DNA of 64,000 nt, taken from assembly GCF_025370775.1 (NCBI RefSeq), contig NZ_JAMXEX010000009.1, positions 1 to 64,000 on the forward strand, given 5' to 3'. This document shows, piece by piece, positions 3,823 to 55,184 of this stretch. This DNA comes from Ancylothrix sp. D3o. GTDB lineage: Bacteria; Cyanobacteriota; Cyanobacteriia; Cyanobacteriales; Oscillatoriaceae. The notes below the pieces were generated by a model, which saw only the letters and a list, made by a program, of their open reading frames with translations, had not been told where the DNA came from and searched no databases. The translations under genes were made by a program, and so were the position numbers. The stretch's first letter is position 1. The number at the start of each line of letters is the position of its first letter.

Positions 3823-4170
3823 TTAAAACCTCAACTCTAAAATTGCTTTTTGCTGTTGCCAAATTGCGGTTAGCCGGTTGATGCCTTCGAGGGAGTAGCG
3901 TTTGGCTTCTTTTTTAATGGCTTTCCAGAGGATGCTGAGTTGGTCGAGGTTTTGGGTTGCTTGTAGCAAGACTCGGCAAGCTGTAATCCATTGTTCGAGT
4001 TTGCGGTAGCTGATGAATAAGCCTCCGTAGTTTTTGATATGCACCCAGAGGACGTGGGGCCATTTTTCGTAGCGGAGGATGCGGTTGGGGTCGATTTTGA
4101 GGAATTTGGCAATTTGGTTGATGGTGATTACGAAGCTTTTGGGGTTAATTAGGCGACGGGGGAGTTTCAT
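3823..4170 (-). CDS. Hypothetical protein with HTH-like N-terminus
   Basis: A 115-residue basic protein that I do not recognise. The N-terminal 40 residues (NQIAKFLKIDPNRILRYEKW) look like a short helix-turn-helix of MerR/excisionase character, followed by Trp-rich helical sequence (WVHIKNYGGLF, WITACRVLLQ, LWKAIKKEAKRYS). There is no signal peptide or membrane segment. GAGG five bases before the ATG supports the start. It is transcribed away from the small Cro-like gene at 4290, with a 119-bp shared intergenic region, an arrangement often seen for a regulator and its target. A DNA-binding role is an inference from weak sequence character only. Confidence 0.55.
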   Translation of the reverse strand: MKLPRRLINPKSFVITINQIAKFLKIDPNRILRYEKWPHVLWVHIKNYGGLFISYRKLEQWITACRVLLQATQNLDQLSILWKAIKKEAKRYSLEGINRLTAIWQQQKAILELRF

Positions 4171-4289
4171 GGCGTCCTCTCGGTTGGGGAGATTTTTGTT
4201 TTGGTTTATGCTTTAATATTATCATGTTGAGTTCTAAATGTCAACACTTAATTTGCAATAAATTAATGTTAAACCTGGAGAAGGCTACT

Positions 4290-4508
4290 ATGTACCAAGT
4301 GAGAGTGAGAGTTAAAGAGTTATCTGAGGCCCAAGAGTGGAGTCTGCATGAGTTGAGTCGGCGTTCTGGTGTGACTTATGCAACGGTGCTTCGCTATTCC
4401 AAGCAGTTAATGCCGAAGGTTGATATGGATGCGGTATGCAGACTTAAGGATACTTTTGGTTGTACTTGGGATGAGTTGTTTGAAGTTCACGGCGATAGTA
4501 AGTTTTAA
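4290..4508 (+). CDS. Small Cro/C1-type helix-turn-helix protein
   Basis: A 72-residue protein consisting almost entirely of an XRE-family HTH (Pfam HTH_26-like): WSLHELSRRSGVTYATVLRY is the turn and recognition helix, and CRLKDTFGCTWDELFEV is the family's typical end. I chose the ATG at 4290 because CTGGAG lies 7 bases upstream and the fold begins at once; an earlier in-frame start at 4224 would add 22 residues without conserved features. It should bind DNA as a dimer. The divergent unknown gene at 3823-4170 is the obvious candidate target. Confidence 0.75.
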   Translation: MYQVRVRVKELSEAQEWSLHELSRRSGVTYATVLRYSKQLMPKVDMDAVCRLKDTFGCTWDELFEVHGDSKF

Positions 4509-4599: not shown

Positions 4600-7500
4600 T
4601 TACATTTGATCGGGATTTTTTAGCTGAAATTTCCACCGGCATTCTTGGCTTTGTTCTTTCGATTCCTGAAAGCGCGAGATAAAATTATTAATTATGCTTT
4701 CTAATGCTTGATAATTAAAGCTTACAGGTATATCCCAACCTAAAATTATCTCGATCTTTCCGGCGTTATTAGTGATAGCAGGCCAAGGTCTAACAAAGGC
4801 TTTTAATTGTTTTTCTAAGTCTATTACTAAGCCGATAATTTGCCCTTCTATCCAGCCGGCATAGATTTTTAAGTCTTGGGAATTTGTCGGGGTTACTGTG
4901 AGGATAATAAACTGCTGAGATTGTGTTATTAAAGAAGCCGGTTTAAACAAAGTTTCTCCACTTTTATCCTCAGCTAAAATAGCCTTCCCTCTTGCAAATT
5001 CCCGGCGGATAATTTCGGCGGTTGATCTTGTTACATTTCGGGCGGTATTTTGACAAGGTTCGAGAGTTGAAATAATTGGCAACCAATCAGGCGGTACTTT
5101 AACTTGATAGCACCGGCCCGCCTCACTCAGTGAGAGGGGGTTTTTCCAGTCATGGGCTGAAAGTGTTGTGAAAAAATGTGAGAGCAAATTTTCGAGGGTA
5201 ATTTCTTGGTGTTTCGGAAAATCTCTGCAACAAATCGCCGCCAATAATGCCCAGGAAAAATTGCCCAAAAATCCCCAAGCATTGCCGTGAATGCAGCGGA
5301 CTTTTGCCCAAGCCCGCACGATTCGCAAAAATTCCCGAAACTGGAAAACCGGCACTCTTTTTTCTACCTGTGATAGCAATTCGTCGGCTTCCCAGCAGCC
5401 TTTTAAAGATAGCGGTTGATGCTTTTCTCTAGGGTTTGAATTCGTGCAAGCACAAAGCAAATCAACGTCTAAGCCTTCGAGTTGTAAGCGCAAAGTTGGC
5501 AAGGTGCCCTCGACTAACCGGCATTCCTGAGATAAACCTTGCAACTTTTCCGCAACTTGTCTTAAAAATGAAGTCTCGGAAATTTTGGCGGGGATAACGC
5601 AAACTGCATCTATATCACTTTCGGGGGTTTCTACGCCTAAACGCGCTGAACCAAAAAGCTCTAACTTGGCACCGCTAAGGCATTCCTGACAAGCTTGTTG
5701 AATAATTGCCAGAATTAAGGAGCGGTTTTCTCGTTGTTGGTGGGTGAGTTCTGGTTCTATTTTGCGGATTATTTGCAACAACTGGCTGGCCGGTTGGCTT
5801 CCCAATTTCACGATCTGCTGCACTTGAAAAGGTTCATCGCCCCGCCGGGAAATTAAGGCTACCGACTCGACGCGAAAGGTGAGAGGATGCCAAACCGGCA
5901 GCAATGCTTGAGCTTCAGCGGGATTCTTAAATTGTCCGACGCTTAAATGGGGTGTAAAACCGGCCCTCGATTTGTTACTTTGTTCATTACATTGGGGGAA
6001 AAGTTGCTGAAGTGTTGCTTGTAATTGGTGAAGTGCTTGCGGGGGATTGGGGGCCGGTCGTAACCAAGCTGTGCAGTTTTGGCGGTGTTGGAAAGTGTCA
6101 AACTCACTCAGGGTAATTTCAAAGGGTTGTAGACTTTCTAAGTGGGGTTGAATTAATTGCACTGCTTCTGCAAAAAACTTTTCTGGGACAAAGCCATAAA
6201 TCAAGGTAATATGAGGCATCCACCGGCCTACTTTGCTGTCATACTTTTGGCGGATTTTTTGAATCACCGGCCATATTTCCATCGGGGGAATAAGCACAAT
6301 CGCACTTTGATAAACCGGCTTGACGGTTTGCACCGCTAACAGGGGTTTTTCTACATACTCCAAAATTGCTTTTAAGCCAAAATGATCCGATGGATAAAGG
6401 GTATTTTGGGTTTCGGGAATTGCTGTGGTGGCAAATAATTCGATGTTTTGCGGTTGCCAGTTTTTTTGATGACTTCGTAGCCAAATTTTATCGAGGCGCG
6501 ATGGGGTGCCGGTTTGACTGTTCACCGCAGCTAAAGCATTGGTTTGGGGGTCAAAAGTGTAGCCGGTTTCATTGGGGCGTAACCCTTGCCAGACATCGAA
6601 AAAATGATTTTCTCTTAAAGTTGCTTCTCGCACACCGGCATTATTAAAATCTCCAACTATCAGGCAATCTCCGGGGAGAGAGTTAAGATAACTCAGGATA
6701 ATTTTAAGCTGTTCTGTCTGTAATTCTGCGGCGTTATAAGCGCGGTTGCTGGTAAGATGCACAACTGCAACTTGCAGAGGTTGATTATTTATGGAAAAGC
6801 TGGCAACTAAAACTCGTTTATGAGAAGAAAAGCGATAATCTTTGAGGGTAAAAGGCAATCGAGAAATTAAGAGTAAACCGTAGGGGGTGAGTTGAGAAGT
6901 GTTGGCCGGTTCGCTGATAAAATAATCTCGTAGCCAGGTTTCGGATAACAAGGCTTGAAGTAAGGCCGGTGTTGCTTCTTGTAAGGCAATAATATCGGCG
7001 TTGCAATTTTTAATTTGCGAAATAATTGCCGGAATTCTCTTTGCCGTTTGGATGCGTTCGCTTTCGTGGGTATCGCAGAGCACGTTATAAGTTACGACTG
7101 TCAACTGAGACAGCGAGACAGACTCAACCTGATGCTGAGGTTGCCAAGATTGTGAGATATTTTGATAAACGGTAGCCTGGTTGAAAGTTGGGGGTGGAGG
7201 TAGCGGAGTTTCCGAAACCGTCTCGCTTACAAATGCCGCAGAGGGTAGCTGATTGGTAGAAAATAAATCAATATGCCGGTCACGTTCCCAAACCAGGATA
7301 TCAGCGCAACGAATATAACGAATGCGATGCCAAGGAATATCTGTCTGCGAAACCCATTGTAAAAAAGGCTTTTCTCGTATTTCGTTGCTTTGCTGGTTTT
7401 CTGGATGCCGCTGACGAACTGCATAACCAACGGTAAACGCCTCAGCATTGAGACGAGCATCCCATAAAATACGGTCGCATATACAGCGGCTTGTTTGCAT
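4600..7500 (-). CDS. MJ1316 / EEP nuclease / 2H phosphoesterase / poly(A) polymerase-like fusion, putative RNA-end repair protein
   Basis: A 966-residue protein with four recognisable domains. Residues 1-80 match the MJ1316 (former DUF504, PF04457) domain, proposed to recognise RNA cyclic-phosphate ends. Residues 132-380 are an endonuclease/exonuclease/phosphatase fold with Asn139, Glu175 (LQEATP), GDFNN (283-287), Asp337 and SDH (371-373). Residues 395-565 are a LigT-like 2H phosphoesterase with both HxT/S motifs: His430-Thr432 and His518-Ser520. Residues 585 to the end are a eukaryote-type poly(A) polymerase-like nucleotidyltransferase: GSARLG (617-622), SDID (628-631) and a third carboxylate in DVDLL (678-682), followed by an all-helical central part and an RNA-binding-like tail. 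All catalytic motifs look intact. The fusion implies removal of 2',3'-cyclic or 3'-phosphate ends followed by nucleotide addition. This functional reading is inference. It sits 64 bp upstream of glgA on the same strand, with no evident functional link. Confidence 0.85.
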   Translation of the reverse strand: MQTSRCICDRILWDARLNAEAFTVGYAVRQRHPENQQSNEIREKPFLQWVSQTDIPWHRIRYIRCADILVWERDRHIDLFSTNQLPSAAFVSETVSETPLPPPPTFNQATVYQNISQSWQPQHQVESVSLSQLTVVTYNVLCDTHESERIQTAKRIPAIISQIKNCNADIIALQEATPALLQALLSETWLRDYFISEPANTSQLTPYGLLLISRLPFTLKDYRFSSHKRVLVASFSINNQPLQVAVVHLTSNRAYNAAELQTEQLKIILSYLNSLPGDCLIVGDFNNAGVREATLRENHFFDVWQGLRPNETGYTFDPQTNALAAVNSQTGTPSRLDKIWLRSHQKNWQPQNIELFATTAIPETQNTLYPSDHFGLKAILEYVEKPLLAVQTVKPVYQSAIVLIPPMEIWPVIQKIRQKYDSKVGRWMPHITLIYGFVPEKFFAEAVQLIQPHLESLQPFEITLSEFDTFQHRQNCTAWLRPAPNPPQALHQLQATLQQLFPQCNEQSNKSRAGFTPHLSVGQFKNPAEAQALLPVWHPLTFRVESVALISRRGDEPFQVQQIVKLGSQPASQLLQIIRKIEPELTHQQRENRSLILAIIQQACQECLSGAKLELFGSARLGVETPESDIDAVCVIPAKISETSFLRQVAEKLQGLSQECRLVEGTLPTLRLQLEGLDVDLLCACTNSNPREKHQPLSLKGCWEADELLSQVEKRVPVFQFREFLRIVRAWAKVRCIHGNAWGFLGNFSWALLAAICCRDFPKHQEITLENLLSHFFTTLSAHDWKNPLSLSEAGRCYQVKVPPDWLPIISTLEPCQNTARNVTRSTAEIIRREFARGKAILAEDKSGETLFKPASLITQSQQFIILTVTPTNSQDLKIYAGWIEGQIIGLVIDLEKQLKAFVRPWPAITNNAGKIEIILGWDIPVSFNYQALESIINNFISRFQESKEQSQECRWKFQLKNPDQM

Positions 7501-7564: not shown

Positions 7565-9040
7565 TTATTTGTGGCGAATATGTTCGTAAATGCCCAAATA
7601 ATCAGTCCCCGGATGGTTCCAAGAATAATCATACTCCATCCCTTGCTGACGGAGTTTTTGGAACTCTTTGGGATAAACTTGGTACAAACCAATTGCCCGA
7701 TCCATCGCTGATTCTAAGGCTTGATCATCGGTTTGATAAAACACATAACCGTTACGTTCTTTTGTCGGCTTTGTTTTGTCATAATCACGATCAAAAACCG
7801 TATTCACCAAACCGCCAACGCCCCGGACAATCGGCACTGTACCATATTTTAACCCAATCATCTGCGTTAGGCCGCAGGGTTCATAATTACTCGGCACCAC
7901 TATCATATCAGCACCGGCATAAATCAAATGAGAAAGCTCTTCATTAAACCCAATTTCCAAATGACAATCCGGGTTATCATTAAGGAAATTTTTCTCATGC
8001 CAGAAACGGTCATTAATACTTTTTTCTGTTGCCGATCCCAGCAAAACAAATTGTGCGCCACGATTCAAGGCATAATAAATAGCATGATGTACCAAATGTA
8101 CACCTTTTTGGTCATCTAACCGGCCAATATAACAAATTAAAGGCTTTTTCCCATGAGCCAGCATTAAACGTTCCCGTAAAGCCTTTTTATTATATTCCTT
8201 GCCGGTCATATCATCCGCCTCATAATGATAAGGCAGATAACGGTCTACTGAGGGGTTCCACACATCATAATCAATGCCATTTAACACCCCACTAAACTTA
8301 TGTTCGTGTTGGTGGATCGTATGCCCTAAACCACAACCAACTTCTGTATAATGAGCTTCCCAGGCGTGATTTGGTGAAACCGTCGTTACATAATTCGAGT
8401 AAACAATTCCCCCCTTCATAAAATTAAGCGCAAAGGGGTTAAAATTATCCCGAAGCCGGTCATACTCAAAATAGTATTCAGGGCGGTTTAAGCCGGTGGC
8501 CTGCAAAATTTCTGCCCCGGCAATACCTTGGTGTTTAAAATTATGAATTGTGTAACAAACCCGCTGATATTCCATACCGTGATACTTGTACATTTCATAC
8601 AACATCACCGGCAGCAAACCGGTTTGCCAGTCGTGACAATGGATAACATCAGGACGTTTATTTGTGCGGTGTAAAAACTCCAAAGCCGCCTTGCTGAAAA
8701 AAGCAAAACGTATATTGTCATCATTGCAGCCATAATAACAACCGCGATTAAAAAAGATATCTGGAGATTGGGGGTCAATAAAAAAACATAACCGGCCATA
8801 AACCCAACCACAATAGACATTACAACTAATTGCCGCCCCATACCAAGGCACCGACAAATTGTTATAAGCCTCATGTAAACCCCAAATATGATCGTAACGC
8901 ATACAATCATATTTCGGCAAAATAATCTCCACAGTATGACCGCGAATTTCCAACTCACGAGTCAACCCATAAACCACATCACCCAAGCCTCCCACCTTGC
9001 AAACAGGGGCGCATTCTGAGGCAATTTGCACAATGTACAT
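7565..9040 (-). CDS. glgA: Glycogen synthase (ADP-glucose type)
   Basis: GT5 glycogen synthase that transfers glucose from ADP-glucose to the growing alpha-1,4-glucan in the cytosol. The 491-residue length and start are standard. The ADP-glucose motif KVGGLGDV is at 15-22; the second Rossmann domain contains YIGRLDDQKG and the donor-site motif NYEPCGLTQMIGLKYG. The ATG follows the first residues MYIVQIASE, as in family members. Many cyanobacteria carry two glgA paralogues; this one, with its YDCMRYD and DRYLPYHYEAD features, looks like the second (GlgA2-like) type, which is a tentative assignment. A GH13 enzyme at 40.3-42.0 kb may act on the same polymer. Confidence 0.92.
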   Translation of the reverse strand: MYIVQIASECAPVCKVGGLGDVVYGLTRELEIRGHTVEIILPKYDCMRYDHIWGLHEAYNNLSVPWYGAAISCNVYCGWVYGRLCFFIDPQSPDIFFNRGCYYGCNDDNIRFAFFSKAALEFLHRTNKRPDVIHCHDWQTGLLPVMLYEMYKYHGMEYQRVCYTIHNFKHQGIAGAEILQATGLNRPEYYFEYDRLRDNFNPFALNFMKGGIVYSNYVTTVSPNHAWEAHYTEVGCGLGHTIHQHEHKFSGVLNGIDYDVWNPSVDRYLPYHYEADDMTGKEYNKKALRERLMLAHGKKPLICYIGRLDDQKGVHLVHHAIYYALNRGAQFVLLGSATEKSINDRFWHEKNFLNDNPDCHLEIGFNEELSHLIYAGADMIVVPSNYEPCGLTQMIGLKYGTVPIVRGVGGLVNTVFDRDYDKTKPTKERNGYVFYQTDDQALESAMDRAIGLYQVYPKEFQKLRQQGMEYDYSWNHPGTDYLGIYEHIRHK

Positions 9041-33115: not shown

Positions 33116-34459
33116 ATGTGGGTCAAAAAAATTAGTCTTGAAAACATCAAAGGCTTTCGAGAACAGGAGTTATCCTTCACTCGCAACAAAAGAGGGGACA
33201 AACCTTACTACTGGATTACTCTCTTAGGAGAAAACGGAGTTGGAAAAACCACATTCCTGCAAGCAATGGCACTCCTTTTAGCAGGGCCAGAAGCGGCTAA
33301 AGAACTTTTGTCAGATACAATCGGCTGGGTGCGCGACTCCTCAAAACCAGGCAAGCTCAAGGCTGTGTTATATCAAGAAGATGTAGATGCTGGAACCTTA
33401 CGAAATAATAATGGTAACAAGGTATTATCCCCTACCTATTCCTATTTCCTTACGGGTAACAATCGTCTCAAAATTGGCAAAGAAACTTATCCCCCTCGAA
33501 CACTGATTGAGGAAGAATCAGAAATTCTCAGCCAGTTACGAACAAATGCCTTTGCGTCAACAACTCAAGGATGGTTTGCTGTCGGTTATGGTGCCTTTCG
33601 TAGACTTTCACGAGAAGACATACGTCGCATACCACGACTAGACCAACCAAAGCGATCCAGCAATTTTGCAACACAGTTTAATGATAATAGACCTTTGAGT
33701 TCATTTGAAGAATGGATGATTCATTTAGACTACCGCATTGCTAAAGATGTTAATGACACCAAGGCCCGACAAATGCGGACTGTAGGAGAAGCGGCTATTA
33801 TCAAACTTATCCCCGGAAATGTAAGAATTTCTGAGATTACTACGGATGGTTTGATCATGTTTTCAGTAGACGAGCAACAAGTTCCAACCATTAGCTTGTC
33901 TGATGGTTTTCGCAGTATCATAGCCTTGGCGGGTGACTTAATATGGCGTTTACTTCAAGCCTTTCCCAACCTTGACGATCCCACTCAGGCATCTGGAGTT
34001 GTCTTGATCGATGAGCTAGATATTCATTTACATCCATCTTGGCAAAGATATATAGCTGGTTGGCTGCGGGAAGTATTTCCGAATCTCCAATTTTTCGTCG
34101 CTACCCACAGTCCTTTAGTAGCTGCTGGCGCGGGAGAAGATGCTCTAACTTTACGCTTCGATATGATTAATGGGGAAGTTGAGGTTACGCCAGTAAAAGA
34201 TATTTCAGCTTATGATGCTGATTATATTTTGAGAAGTCCTGCATTTGGTTTAACATCCACCTATTCTCCAGCCACGCAAGAGAAAATTGAACGATACAAC
34301 GAACTGACAAGAAAGATAAATGATTTGATTGGCGAAGAACGCAAAGAATACGAAACACTCAGAAAATTTATGAAAGAAGCGCAGCCCATAGGAGGCCCAC
34401 CCGAACCAGGAAGCTTAGAGGCGCGAACCCAGGCTTTTTTGGAGGCTCATCTACCGTGA
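33116..34459 (+). CDS. ptuA: AAA family ATPase, Septu PtuA-like
   Basis: A 447-residue SMC/OLD-like ATPase of the AAA_15/AAA_21 type. Walker A is GENGVGKTT (38-46), the signature-like helix LSDGFRSIIAL (261-271), Walker B VVLIDELD (295-302) and the H-loop ATHSPLVA (329-336). A charged coiled-coil-like tail follows (about 380-430). The following gene is an HNH nuclease whose GTG overlaps this stop codon by 4 bp (GTGA). This ATPase/HNH pair is the composition of the Septu anti-phage system. AAGGAG at 33103-33108 supports the ATG. The PtuA identity rests on the pair and on architecture, not on a database search. Confidence 0.85.
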   Translation: MWVKKISLENIKGFREQELSFTRNKRGDKPYYWITLLGENGVGKTTFLQAMALLLAGPEAAKELLSDTIGWVRDSSKPGKLKAVLYQEDVDAGTLRNNNGNKVLSPTYSYFLTGNNRLKIGKETYPPRTLIEEESEILSQLRTNAFASTTQGWFAVGYGAFRRLSREDIRRIPRLDQPKRSSNFATQFNDNRPLSSFEEWMIHLDYRIAKDVNDTKARQMRTVGEAAIIKLIPGNVRISEITTDGLIMFSVDEQQVPTISLSDGFRSIIALAGDLIWRLLQAFPNLDDPTQASGVVLIDELDIHLHPSWQRYIAGWLREVFPNLQFFVATHSPLVAAGAGEDALTLRFDMINGEVEVTPVKDISAYDADYILRSPAFGLTSTYSPATQEKIERYNELTRKINDLIGEERKEYETLRKFMKEAQPIGGPPEPGSLEARTQAFLEAHLP

Positions 34460-35298
34460 TTTCTGTCTCTAAACCCAGAACTCCTGCTATTTTACAAAGA
34501 AATGGCGCTAAGTGGTTGTCTGAATTACAGGCAGCAAAAAAAAATTTAGACGCAATCCAAGCTAATCCTAAAGCAACGCCGCAAGAGATTGCTAAGACGA
34601 AGAAAAAACACGATGATGCTATAAACAAATATCGCCACAAAAACATTAAATCTGAGCTAGAAACCATATTTAATGGAAAATGTGCCTATTGTGAAAGCAA
34701 AGTTACAACCACAGGCTATGGTCATATCGAACACTTTTTCCCAAAAGGAGACCCCCAATATCTACACCTAACCTTTGATTGGCAAAATCTTTTACTTTCA
34801 TGCGAAATCTGCAACAATGCTCAACATAAAGGAACAAACTTTCCCCTCGACTCTAGTGGCAATCCCTTGCTGATCAATCCAAGCGATGGGGTTACAGAGA
34901 TCAATAAGCATCTAAAATTTTCTTGGGATCAAGTGGATGGTGCGAAAATAGAAGGTCGTGATGACAGGGGTAAGAAAGTTGTAGAGATCTTTGACCTCAA
35001 TAGCACTAGCGGCACCCGCAAGGAGTTATTTAAGCACCGGAAAAAGATAGTCAAAGATATGCTCTGCGTGTTAACATTTTCTCAAACAATTGCTGACCCT
35101 CACCACAAATCAGAAGCCATCCAATTGTTAACAGAATACTGCCAGCCTACTGCTGAGTATAGTGCATTTGCTCTGGTGTATATTCTCCCTTACCTAGCTC
35201 ATCACTTTCGCATTCCAGAGGCAATTATCCTTTTAAAACAAGTTAGCCAGCGCAGTCCCGCCTATGGTGAGTGGGCTCGTGTTGACGCTCTGCCTTAA
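34456..35298 (+). CDS. ptuB: HNH endonuclease, TIGR02646/Septu PtuB-like
   Basis: A 280-residue HNH nuclease. The nuclease core has CAYC (76-79), HIEHFFPKG (90-98), DWQNLLLSCEICN (108-120) and a following basic His-Lys (NAQHKG), so zinc-structuring cysteine pairs and the HNH histidines are all present. The N-terminus (about 20-65) is a basic helical segment. The C-terminal 130 residues are helical without a known motif. TIGR02646-type proteins are the HNH components of Septu and of retron-associated defence cassettes. Translation is coupled to the ATPase gene by a 4-bp GTGA overlap. No retron reverse transcriptase is present nearby. Confidence 0.87.
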   Translation: MISVSKPRTPAILQRNGAKWLSELQAAKKNLDAIQANPKATPQEIAKTKKKHDDAINKYRHKNIKSELETIFNGKCAYCESKVTTTGYGHIEHFFPKGDPQYLHLTFDWQNLLLSCEICNNAQHKGTNFPLDSSGNPLLINPSDGVTEINKHLKFSWDQVDGAKIEGRDDRGKKVVEIFDLNSTSGTRKELFKHRKKIVKDMLCVLTFSQTIADPHHKSEAIQLLTEYCQPTAEYSAFALVYILPYLAHHFRIPEAIILLKQVSQRSPAYGEWARVDALP

Positions 35299-52926: not shown

Positions 52927-54288
52927 TTAACCTTTGATTTGAGTCGAGATTATGTCTAATTCTTGAACAGATGACTTGGCTGCATAAAGGCAAAAGTTGT
53001 TAATTTTTTCCGAAGGTTTTGATATGTTGTCACTGTTTTGGCTGAGTTCATCAGCATTAAATAGAGATAACTGTTGAGGTTCTTGATCAGATTGATTAGA
53101 AAGCTTAGATTTATTTTGGCTGACAAAATCTCCCATCCGCTCGCAGCCTTTGGCAAAACGTCGTAAAATTGTTGAAATAGCTTCGGGACTATTATCTATT
53201 CCTATCCACCGGCGTTCTAACTGCGAGGCTACTGCTAAGGTAGTTCCCGAACCACAAAAACAATCCAAAACCAAATCCCCAGGGTTTGAGGATGCTTGAA
53301 TAATTCGAGCCAGTAAATCTGGGTTCTTTTCTGTAGGATAGCCGGTGATTTTAATATTTTGATTGTGAGCATCTCGAAACTCAAGCCAAATATCTTGGAC
53401 GGCAATTCCGTTACTTTCATCCAGGTAAATTTTCCTTCGCGGATTGCCATTACTTGACCAGTAAATTTCCCCGCGTGCGTCCATTTCATCTAGGGTTTTT
53501 GGCATAAATTGCCAGTGTTTGCCTGGGGGTGGATTCATTCCTCGCCAAGGTTTGCCGGTTTCCCCATTTCTTACGCCTGGCGCATGGAGGGGAACTTTTT
53601 TATATCTTCTGCCGGTTTCTTTTTCGACATATTCATATTCTTTGAGTGCTCGTTCTTCCGTCCACTGGTCGAGAGGCCGGTTCCAAACATAGTTATCTGA
53701 TTTTGTGTAAAATAAGATAAAATCAGATATATTTCCATAAGTTTTGCGGGTGTAGTTTTTGGGATTACATTTCTTGCGGGTAATCCAATTACGAAAATTA
53801 CGAGAACCAAAAACCTCATCCATAATGATCTTGATGTGAAAAGCCATGTTTTCATCAAGATGGACATAAATCGAGCCATCCTCAGCTAATAACTCTCGCA
53901 AGAAAATCAATCTTTCTCGCATAAATTCAATGTAATGAGAGCCTTTTAGCAAATCTGAATAAGCATTCATTTGAGAGCGAGATTGAAAGATACTGTTGGT
54001 AGCGAAAGGCGGATCAATGTAAATTAGTCTGACTTGGCCGCGAACTGTAGTATCGTTAAATAAAGATGCCAAAATCGGTAAATTGTCACCAAAGTAAAGT
54101 CGGTTTTCTAACTCGTCATCTTTTCTTTGATTTTCTAGCCATATCCTCACACATTCCGCCGGCGCTGTTGCCAAAATTTCCGACTCAGAAAGTTTCCCAG
54201 CATAGGAAAGGCAGACATCTAAATTATTCGGTGAAAGGCTTTCCGAAATATTGCCGTAACCTTGTGTTTTGGGGATGCCGGTTGCCAT
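52927..54288 (-). CDS. DNA methyltransferase (N6-adenine/N4-cytosine type)
   Basis: A 453-residue Mod-type methyltransferase. The catalytic motif IV is DPPF (about 92-95) in LIYIDPPFATNSI; the SAM-binding motif I, VLDCFCGSGTTLAVA, is near residue 350, with RRWIGIDNSP after it. This order (IV before I) marks the beta group, which includes many N6-adenine MTases. AAGGAG six bases before the ATG at 54288 favours this start over the longer frame. It lies 14 bp after the stop of the putative restriction nuclease, so the two form a Type II-like R-M operon. Target sequence unknown. Confidence 0.88.
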   Translation of the reverse strand: MATGIPKTQGYGNISESLSPNNLDVCLSYAGKLSESEILATAPAECVRIWLENQRKDDELENRLYFGDNLPILASLFNDTTVRGQVRLIYIDPPFATNSIFQSRSQMNAYSDLLKGSHYIEFMRERLIFLRELLAEDGSIYVHLDENMAFHIKIIMDEVFGSRNFRNWITRKKCNPKNYTRKTYGNISDFILFYTKSDNYVWNRPLDQWTEERALKEYEYVEKETGRRYKKVPLHAPGVRNGETGKPWRGMNPPPGKHWQFMPKTLDEMDARGEIYWSSNGNPRRKIYLDESNGIAVQDIWLEFRDAHNQNIKITGYPTEKNPDLLARIIQASSNPGDLVLDCFCGSGTTLAVASQLERRWIGIDNSPEAISTILRRFAKGCERMGDFVSQNKSKLSNQSDQEPQQLSLFNADELSQNSDNISKPSEKINNFCLYAAKSSVQELDIISTQIKG

Positions 54289-54302
54289 TTTAACTCCTTG
54301 TT

Positions 54303-55184
54303 TTAAGAACGAAGCCACTCAAGGGTAATTCGTTCAGGAACCATTCGCAGCGTTAAGACTATAATTTTATCAGGCGAACTTCTCTCGATATTGGCGTAAT
54401 CATTCCACATTGACCCTAACAAAAGACCAGGCCCATCGTTCAAAAAAATTATCTTAGTTTTTAAGTTATGTTGTTCTGTATATCTAAAAATTTCATCTGC
54501 ACAACTGCGATAACCTCCAGTTCTATCATCTTCTTGAGCGCCACCTCGATCCGAATCATATCTCGCTAATCCGATTGCTAAAATTTCGCGCCCATTAACA
54601 TCATAAATCACAAAATCGACTGGCCGTGTGGGATTAGGATAATCTTTAAAAATCTTTCCCATAAAAATATCTTTTCCTGCTCGTTCTGGGCCTCGAATTG
54701 GTAATTCAGGAAAGTGCAAACGAAATAAAGAAAAAAATCTTTCTGTCAAGTCATATCCTTTTTGTCCGCGACTTTTATATTCCCATAATAAAGCACACAT
54801 CGCTTCATCTGGAATTGGCCGACTCATAAAAGCCGCTTGCACTTCTTGCACCGGCCTAAATCTGCCTCCAAATTGCTTAGATATATCGGTTGCTTTTTTC
54901 TTTCGTCTGAGCATTTCCACAGGGATTTCAGGGCTGACATATTTGCGAAAAACTCGATATAGTTGCACCCGCATCCATGCGTTAGGAACCTCAGAAATCT
55001 GGAGGAACAAGCGCACCGATGATTCAGAAGTTCTCAGCAATTGGCCAAACATTACCAAAACTGGCTCGTAAAGTTGGCAAGCTACTTGCAAAATATCTGG
55101 ATAATATTCTCCTGTCGTCAACGTTACCCAGTTGTGTCCATCCACTTTATAATCTGCAAAGGAATTACGCGGGCCTGAAGTCAT
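54303..55184 (-). CDS. Putative restriction endonuclease, partner of the methyltransferase
   Basis: A 293-residue protein of no family I can name with confidence. Its placement directly upstream of a DNA methyltransferase suggests a Type II restriction enzyme. A possible PD-(D/E)xK-like core is PVDFVIYDVNGREILAIGL (Asp190, Glu200) followed by the conspicuous LARYDSDRGGAQEDDRTGG, which is rich in acidic residues and could bind metal. There is no signal peptide or membrane segment. The N-terminal 90 residues look helical. The assignment is inference from operon context; the core is only suggestive. Confidence 0.6.
   Translation of the reverse strand: MTSGPRNSFADYKVDGHNWVTLTTGEYYPDILQVACQLYEPVLVMFGQLLRTSESSVRLFLQISEVPNAWMRVQLYRVFRKYVSPEIPVEMLRRKKKATDISKQFGGRFRPVQEVQAAFMSRPIPDEAMCALLWEYKSRGQKGYDLTERFFSLFRLHFPELPIRGPERAGKDIFMGKIFKDYPNPTRPVDFVIYDVNGREILAIGLARYDSDRGGAQEDDRTGGYRSCADEIFRYTEQHNLKTKIIFLNDGPGLLLGSMWNDYANIERSSPDKIIVLTLRMVPERITLEWLRS

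Follow-up and report, generated by a model that had tools for sequence, protein, structure and literature searches.

A cyanobacterial four-domain fusion protein, a probable RNA 3'-end component of ligase-based RNA repair

The stretch of DNA analysed here (the window) comprises positions 1 to 64,000 of contig NZ_JAMXEX010000009.1 from the cyanobacterium Ancylothrix sp. D3o (assembly GCF_025370775.1). It contains, at 4600-7500 on the minus strand, a 966-codon open reading frame (ORF) with an ATG start, the fusion gene, whose 966-residue product joins an MJ1316 domain, an exonuclease-endonuclease-phosphatase (EEP) domain, a 2H phosphoesterase domain and a eukaryote-like poly(A) polymerase (PAP). 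The fusion gene is tied to RNA repair by its arrangement with RNA ligase and kinase genes in related records and by its co-occurrence with them. Here its domains, relatives and gene partners are described, and a role in healing and rebuilding RNA 3' ends is weighed against other readings.

Results

Domain architecture

The gene and the regions of its product are listed below, with the basis of each assignment in parentheses.

4600-7500, minus strand: whole gene, MJ1316-EEP-2H-PAP fusion, 966 residues (ORF, Pfam, homologues)
7282-7500, minus strand: MJ1316 domain, residues 1-73; W13-D14, P56-W57-H58-R59 and W71 identical in 9/9 aligned proteins (Pfam, alignment)
6382-7095, minus strand: EEP domain, residues 136-373, TDP2-like (Pfam, profile, Foldseek, alignment)
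5833-6288, minus strand: 2H phosphoesterase domain, residues 405-556, with motifs H430-I-T and H518-L-S (Pfam, alignment)
5437-5700, minus strand: PAP-type nucleotidyltransferase domain, residues 601-688, with D629, D631 and D680 (Pfam, PDB sequence match, alignment)
4954-5343, minus strand: PAP central domain, residues 720-849 (Pfam, PDB sequence match, profile)
4603-4953, minus strand: C-terminal region, residues 850-966, possibly a PAP RNA-binding domain (family-profile alignment; low-confidence model)

All six Pfam matches in the protein exceed their curated cut-offs. They are MJ1316 (PF04457) at residues 1-73 (E 1.3e-15, 58.2 bits against a cut-off of 26.3), Exo_endo_phos at 136-373 (E 6e-13), 2_5_RNA_ligase2 at 405-556 (E 3.8e-38), NTP_transf_2 at 601-641 (E 1.8e-7), PAP_NTPase at 610-688 (E 5.8e-7) and PAP_central at 720-849 (E 1.2e-21). 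The PAP families score 30.0 bits against 27 (PF20750) and 77.4 bits against 27.1 (PF04928). No Pfam domain is found in residues 850-966, where a profile of nine homologues aligns with bovine PAP as far as chain residue 453 and a low-confidence AlphaFold model shows alternating strands and helices. This model, built from 6 sequences, is poor (mean pLDDT 53.7, pTM 0.34); its EEP part is better modelled and was used for the Foldseek comparison.

The original prediction, made from the DNA letters, had placed these four domains in this order in one reading frame, and the Pfam matches over the 966 residues bear it out. It had also suggested checking whether the order recurs in other cyanobacteria. 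Five further cyanobacterial proteins and three actinomycete proteins align across all four domains, so the order is not due to chance; Pfam recovers MJ1316, EEP, 2H and PAP_central in order in the 3 of these 8 relatives that were scanned (L033, L034 and L035).

Conserved residues and nearest structures

Residue conservation was read from an alignment of nine proteins, the window protein and 8 others. EEP residues N139, E175, D284, N286, D372 and H373, 2H residues H430 and H518, and PAP residues G617-S618, D629, D631 and D680 are identical in 9/9. We take these positions to be the catalytic ones of their families. The prediction that all catalytic motifs are present, two HxT/S motifs among them, therefore stands for the core residues, with a qualification for the 2H domain: the window protein has HIT at 430-432 and HLS at 518-520, but the first motif is HxN in the other 8/8 proteins, so that the relatives show the HxT/S pair in part.

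The 2H domain has a weak best match in the PDB, annotated BSU11850 (E 0.014), and against the ThpR equivalog model (TIGR02258) the fusion protein scores 31.8 bits, below the cut-off of 65.7. The MJ1316 domain has no PDB sequence match at E values up to 10. Binding of cyclic-phosphate RNA ends by MJ1316 is predicted in the literature: a passage of PMC6514570 states this recognition with two references, one of them a 2016 survey by Burroughs and Aravind. The same source describes MJ1316 fused to RNA-repair domains across eukaryotic lineages, and the theme of MJ1316-RNA-repair fusions is to that extent already known.

The closest PDB sequences to the C-terminal half are human PAP gamma (E 1.3e-32) and bovine PAP alpha (E 7e-32), and with the nine-homologue profile the PAP match strengthens to 5.8e-61. 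The polymerase is thus eukaryote-like, as had been proposed. Four positions of bovine PAP (K228, Y237, N239 and V247) correspond in the PDB alignment to R729, H738, N740 and F748, N239 alone being retained; in the three copies from actinomycetes these residues are K, D, A and L. These residues presumably bear on nucleotide choice. Eukaryotic homologues were reached through PDB sequences.

The polymerase fold also bears on one alternative, in which the protein turns over nucleotide signals such as 2'-5' oligoadenylate or cyclic oligonucleotides. Both the 2H and the EEP family have members that are 2',5'-phosphodiesterases, and signal-making cyclases have a fold related to that of PAP; passages in two sources state that some 2H domains degrade 2'-5' oligoadenylate (PMC5512222) and call PDE12, of the CCR4 family, a 2',5'-phosphodiesterase (PMC9525292). 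Similarity of the PAP part to cyclases of cyclic-oligonucleotide-based antiphage signalling systems (CBASS) is very weak (E 0.17 and 0.0064, and 0.0045 to a CdnC entry). The similarity to PAP is far stronger (~1e-32), however, and the gene partners are RNA-repair enzymes (the search for effectors was limited to immediate neighbours). Signal turnover is therefore very improbable.

Among PDB sequences the EEP domain is closest to TDP2 (E 4.4e-11 with the single sequence, 8.7e-17 with the nine-homologue profile), and Foldseek also gives TDP2 (TM 0.78 on target, ~20-24% identity, among the best 50 of 158 matches at E <= 0.001). In the alignment with TDP2 the N, E, HLxS, YT[WF]D, R[LF]D, GDxN and SDH stretches line up. 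The match to CCR4-NOT6/6L is restricted to a short stretch, and the ANGEL branch is absent among the PDB matches listed. TDP2 works on 5' ends, and because the domain is nearest to TDP2 it could likewise have a 5'-end role.

This likeness underlies a second alternative, end cleaning centred on the EEP domain, which would take protein or other adducts off 5' DNA or RNA ends as part of the response to damage, a role proposed for the ligase-PARG-HD-kinase operon of Deinococcus. Passages in three papers favour a damage-related role for that related operon: it is induced by DNA damage and was proposed to act in RNA and/or DNA repair (PMC11833690), it was predicted to encode a double-strand-break repair complex (PMC1274311), and its ligase, DRB0100, is upregulated by radiation (PMC1997131). 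Among the matches listed, TDP2 is indeed the closest relative of the EEP domain. On the other hand, all domains but the EEP (MJ1316, 2H and PAP) come from RNA 3'-end families, and a two-domain form from Streptomyces, described below, retains MJ1316 and 2H without EEP. We regard adduct removal as the protein's main task as quite improbable.

A functional precedent for EEP action at RNA 3' ends, by analogy, comes from a different EEP branch. ANGEL2 is an EEP-domain protein whose phosphatase activity is needed for mitochondrial RNA processing, as stated in PMC9525292; a section heading of that paper names hydrolysis of 3'-terminal phosphates, and a title in its reference list reports 2',3'-cyclic phosphatase activity for ANGEL. 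In the fusion protein the EEP domain might take off the phosphate that 2H action leaves behind.

Distribution of the fusion

The sample searched comprised 386 genomes of the same phylum; a further genome, G038, and a Richelia metagenome-assembled genome (MAG), G408, lie outside it. A search with the fusion protein, limited to two scored candidates per genome, matched 18 genomes at E <= 0.001. For 14 of these the similarity is confined to the EEP domain or its surroundings, and in four (G000, G039, G376 and G362) it includes the MJ1316 end. The MJ1316 family model, applied in a scan that scored every candidate shown, returned exactly the same four genomes, so MJ1316 was not found outside the fusion protein in this sample. 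Further full-length copies are present in G038, in the Richelia MAG (L028; the one relative yielded by a scan of the contig collection) and on a conjugative plasmid of Calothrix brevissima NIES-22 (L033). No fusion was found in seven other genomes of the window's family, one of which (G006) is 66% complete. The fusion gene is rare, and its core residues are conserved.

Three actinomycete records from the plasmid collection, from Nonomuraea gerenzanensis and two Embleya, align over the four domains at 28-31% identity. These three make up the four-domain actinomycete evidence, and one of them, at 11.85 Mb, is perhaps a chromosome. Two Streptomyces plasmids encode a short protein with MJ1316 and 2H alone (Pfam on L037, tblastn for L038), a form that fits a 3'-end unit. 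The copy in G362 (L043) is 558 residues long and breaks off behind the 2H domain; its PAP part seems to have been lost by insertion.

Several observations were made at these loci. The Streptomyces protein lies at L037:4001-4864 and at about 4001-4900 in L038, where the PLSDB table lists no gene. In L043:5539-10269 a short PAP remnant lies ~2.8 kb past the truncated copy, beyond ORFs judged by eye to be transposase-like. On the Calothrix plasmid (L033:12967-16290) the fusion gene adjoins a gene for a 184-residue protein without a Pfam match, followed by one for a large dynamin-family protein (Dynamin_N, 9.2e-17). Frames of ~290-320 codons encoding EEP alone, ~35% identical to the fusion EEP, occur in other genomes of the same taxonomic order (L004-L007); those in L005 and L006 carry one internal stop.

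A phage origin was also considered and rejected. With the window protein and the Embleya homologue as queries there was no match in 50,697 phage records, and scans of viral contigs, seeded from a few short peptide patterns, gave none by protein or alignment.

RNA ligase and kinase genes beside the fusion gene

In all three actinomycete four-domain records (L034, L035 and L036) the upstream gene ends on base 8001, where the ATG of the four-domain gene begins, giving a 1-base overlap; in L034 and L036 an alternative start is possible one codon earlier. The upstream protein combines RNA_ligase (PF09414) with AAA_33, a P-loop domain, at its C terminus, with Pfam E values of 8e-33 and 4e-21 in L035 and 2.8e-34 and 3.8e-21 in L034; that of L036 is 78% identical to its L035 counterpart. 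Pfam finds no 3'-end enzyme in this actinomycete ligase-kinase. In such a pair the fusion protein would supply the candidates for 3'-end work, the 2H domain to open the cyclic phosphate, the EEP domain to remove the phosphate and the PAP domain to add nucleotides.

A comparable arrangement is found in the cyanobacterial genome G038, where an RNA ligase frame, an HD-AAA_33 gene and the four-domain gene follow one another on one strand. The ligase frame (L041 5713-6420) is 64% identical to the window genome's ligase over residues 26-257. It overlaps the HD-AAA_33 gene by 4 bases (ATGA), if the latter begins at that ATG, and 119 bp separate the HD-AAA_33 gene from the four-domain gene. The window genome has an adjacent ligase (258 residues, PF09414, 3.9e-37) and HD-AAA_33 protein (359 residues) at C9:88494-90494, 81 kb from the fusion gene on the same contig. 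AAA_33, a putative 5' kinase, is thus fused to the ligase in L034 and L035 and lies within the HD-AAA_33 protein (HD-kinase) in cyanobacteria. An RNA ligase is present in the same genome as the fusion gene in 6/6 cyanobacterial genomes.

The adjoining ligase and kinase genes of the actinomycetes and G038 support the connection with RNA repair that the original prediction had drawn. Its further claim, a complete repair cycle on one protein, is overstated: the end-processing domains are present, but Pfam gives no ligase or 5' kinase domain in the 966 residues. Sealing and 5'-end work would fall to separate proteins; cyanobacteria have a single-domain ligase plus an HD-kinase, actinomycetes a ligase fused to the kinase.

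Genes of the Band_7/SPFH type were observed in divergent orientation beside the RNA ligase at L058:8706-9575, L059:8765-9658, L061:8796-9656 and L060:5762-6715; there is none among the ORFs listed beside the window genome's ligase. The abstract of the 2016 survey reportedly counts SPFH modules among the scaffolds for RNA repair.

Co-occurrence with the ligase/HD-kinase pair

The G038 HD-kinase matches 94 of the 386 genomes, 10 at E < 1e-100, the next being partial matches at ~1e-9. The ligase matches 13, again 10 at E < 1e-100, with the next at 7.8e-18. The two strict sets are the same 10 genomes. All four genomes with the MJ1316 fusion fall within these ten (hypergeometric p 2.3e-7, shared ancestry ignored); counted by genus, 3/3 fusion genera fall within 5 of 143 (p 2.1e-5, likewise ignoring shared ancestry). 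G038 and the Richelia MAG also hold all three genes, the HD gene of the latter reading in two frames. Ligase and HD-kinase lie <= 0.5 kb apart on one strand in 11 of these 12 genomes; the exception is G155, where they are on different contigs.

These data bear on a third alternative, in which the protein turns the blocked 3' ends of broken RNA into 3'-OH ends and gives them an A-rich tail, sending the fragment to 3' exonucleases; this would be disposal and not repair. In bacteria, 3' tails promote RNA decay. The nearest relatives of the polymerase are true poly(A) polymerases, with no CCA-adding enzyme among the matches listed, and in 5/6 cyanobacterial genomes the fusion gene is unlinked to the ligase. 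Tailing for decay would, however, need neither ligase nor kinase, the genes with which the fusion gene is arranged and co-occurs, and disposal by this route is unlikely.

Other features of the window

The fusion gene shares its strand with glgA, which is 64 bp upstream. A housekeeping operon with glgA was rejected, as the fusion gene follows glgA in 0/5 same-family genomes read (~2.6 kb of flank in L074). The link looks incidental because glgA has other neighbours in these five genomes. Identity with a known defence gene was rejected as well, PADLOC giving weak partial matches (E 0.003 or worse) for the fusion protein and the partners tested. No tRNAs, and no structured RNAs at the gathering threshold, were found in the window. 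Other features observed there are as follows.

3823-4170, minus strand: 115-residue protein just downstream of the fusion gene, no Pfam match above cut-off
4224-4508, plus strand: small HTH_26 regulator just downstream of the fusion gene
33116-35298, plus strand: Septu defence pair whose genes overlap by 4 bases, PtuA (E 4.5e-175) and PtuB with an HNH domain (9.5e-51)
52927-55184, minus strand: DNA methyltransferase (PADLOC MTase_II 3.8e-147, N6_N4_Mtase) overlapping a 293-residue protein, which has no Pfam or PADLOC match at the limits used and may be its restriction partner

Discussion

Proposed role in RNA repair

The fusion protein probably heals and rebuilds RNA 3' ends within a repair system based on an ATP-dependent RNA ligase. 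Domains, conserved catalytic residues, gene arrangements and co-occurrence were observed directly, and from these we infer every reaction step. MJ1316 would grip the broken 3' end, as the literature predicts. Judging from its family, the 2H domain would open the 2',3'-cyclic phosphate, giving a monophosphate. Stripping of the remaining phosphate, to leave a 3'-OH, may then fall to the EEP domain or, in cyanobacteria, to the partner kinase's HD domain; alternatively the EEP domain may clean 5' ends. The PAP domain would add one or more untemplated nucleotides in place of those lost. The kinase would phosphorylate the 5' end and the ligase would seal the break, as their families suggest. According to section 21 of PMC7824862, ATP-grasp ligases require 5'-phosphate and 3'-OH ends, and the ends produced by metal-independent nucleases call for a kinase and phosphoesterases; cyclic ends are likely cleared by 2H enzymes, and lost bases are restored by nucleotidyltransferases. 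Processing of cyclic ends by 2H domains associated with ATP-grasp ligases is also described in a passage of PMC5512222.

Several points weigh against this role. The fusion gene stands apart from the ligase pair in the 5/6 genomes noted above, and six of the ten genomes with the pair lack the fusion gene, which is therefore an optional addition. The cut-off of E < 1e-100 was placed at a visible gap after the matches were known, and the p-values take no account of shared ancestry. The ligase frame of G038, short of ~25 N-terminal residues, may be impaired or the result of misassembly. With the Embleya ligase-kinase as query the Calothrix plasmid record gives no match, and the G038 ligase likewise escapes this query. 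Where PAP is missing, as in the Streptomyces two-domain forms and the truncated G362 copy, rebuilding is dispensable. In cyanobacteria the 2H and EEP domains would be partly redundant, since the HD-kinase is predicted to be able to heal 3' ends already. Finally, the TDP2-like EEP domain might serve 5' ends, and the assignment of steps to domains stays unproven.

A more specific form of the repair role is put forward tentatively and is doubtful as it stands. Here a captive eukaryote-type PAP, fused to enzymes that clear cyclic phosphates, would refill nucleotides lost at an RNA break (for example by excision of a wobble base) before the partner ligase seals it, leaving non-templated nucleotides in the product. 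The fusion protein would then be an exchangeable end-cleaning cassette for ligase/HD-kinase operons, as PARG would be in Deinococcus.

In a single chain the protein brings together recognition of 3' ends, the opening of cyclic phosphates, a second phosphoesterase and the addition of nucleotides, and gene arrangement and co-occurrence tie this chain to a sealing system. These predicted activities give a specific, testable route from a blocked 3' end to a refilled, ligatable one. The canonical PAP core in these bacteria probably serves repair and not bulk polyadenylation. The gene sets are small, three genes in one cyanobacterium and two in actinomycetes, and suit reconstitution in vitro.

Comparison with known systems

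No report of the bacterial four-domain protein with its gene partners was found in the literature searched, which was mostly open-access and did not include Burroughs and Aravind 2016; that survey may already show this architecture, and absence from print is not claimed. RNA-repair systems with an ATP-grasp ligase, including that of jumbo phages with RlaP, have the same predicted set of activities according to PMC7824862: ligase, kinase, opening of cyclic phosphates, phosphatase and a polymerase that restores nucleotides. They differ from the present case in that four end-processing domains are fused here and that the polymerase is a canonical eukaryote-like PAP and not RlaP or a CCA enzyme.

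Eukaryotic PAP alpha and gamma share with the fusion protein the GS motif, the three catalytic Asp and the central domain, which here form part of a larger chain. TDP2 shares the EEP fold and motif positions, but the EEP domain of the fusion is joined to RNA 3'-end domains.

The plant and fungal tRNA ligase Trl1 has the layout ligase-kinase-2H. Its ligase, kinase and 2H activities work together, and the two-gene arrangement of the actinomycetes holds all three; here, in contrast, they are split over two proteins, and EEP, PAP and MJ1316 are added.

A close parallel is found in Deinococcus radiodurans, where DRB0100-DRB0099-DRB0098 encode a ligase, a PARG macrodomain protein and an HD-kinase, the same kind of ligase and HD-kinase as here. 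A ligase encoded on D. radiodurans plasmid MP1 shares 56% identity with residues 21-223 of the Embleya ligase. Its gene is followed on the same strand by genes for a TIGR02452 protein and an AAA-family ATPase, an order from which the three were taken as DRB0100-0099-0098. The window genome's HD-kinase matches 18 Deinococcus records. Deinococcus has a PARG-type end-cleaning enzyme between ligase and HD-kinase, whereas the bacteria described here have the fusion protein in the operon or elsewhere. By this analogy, and under the cassette proposal, the fusion protein and PARG would be alternative end-cleaning partners of one ligase/HD-kinase core.

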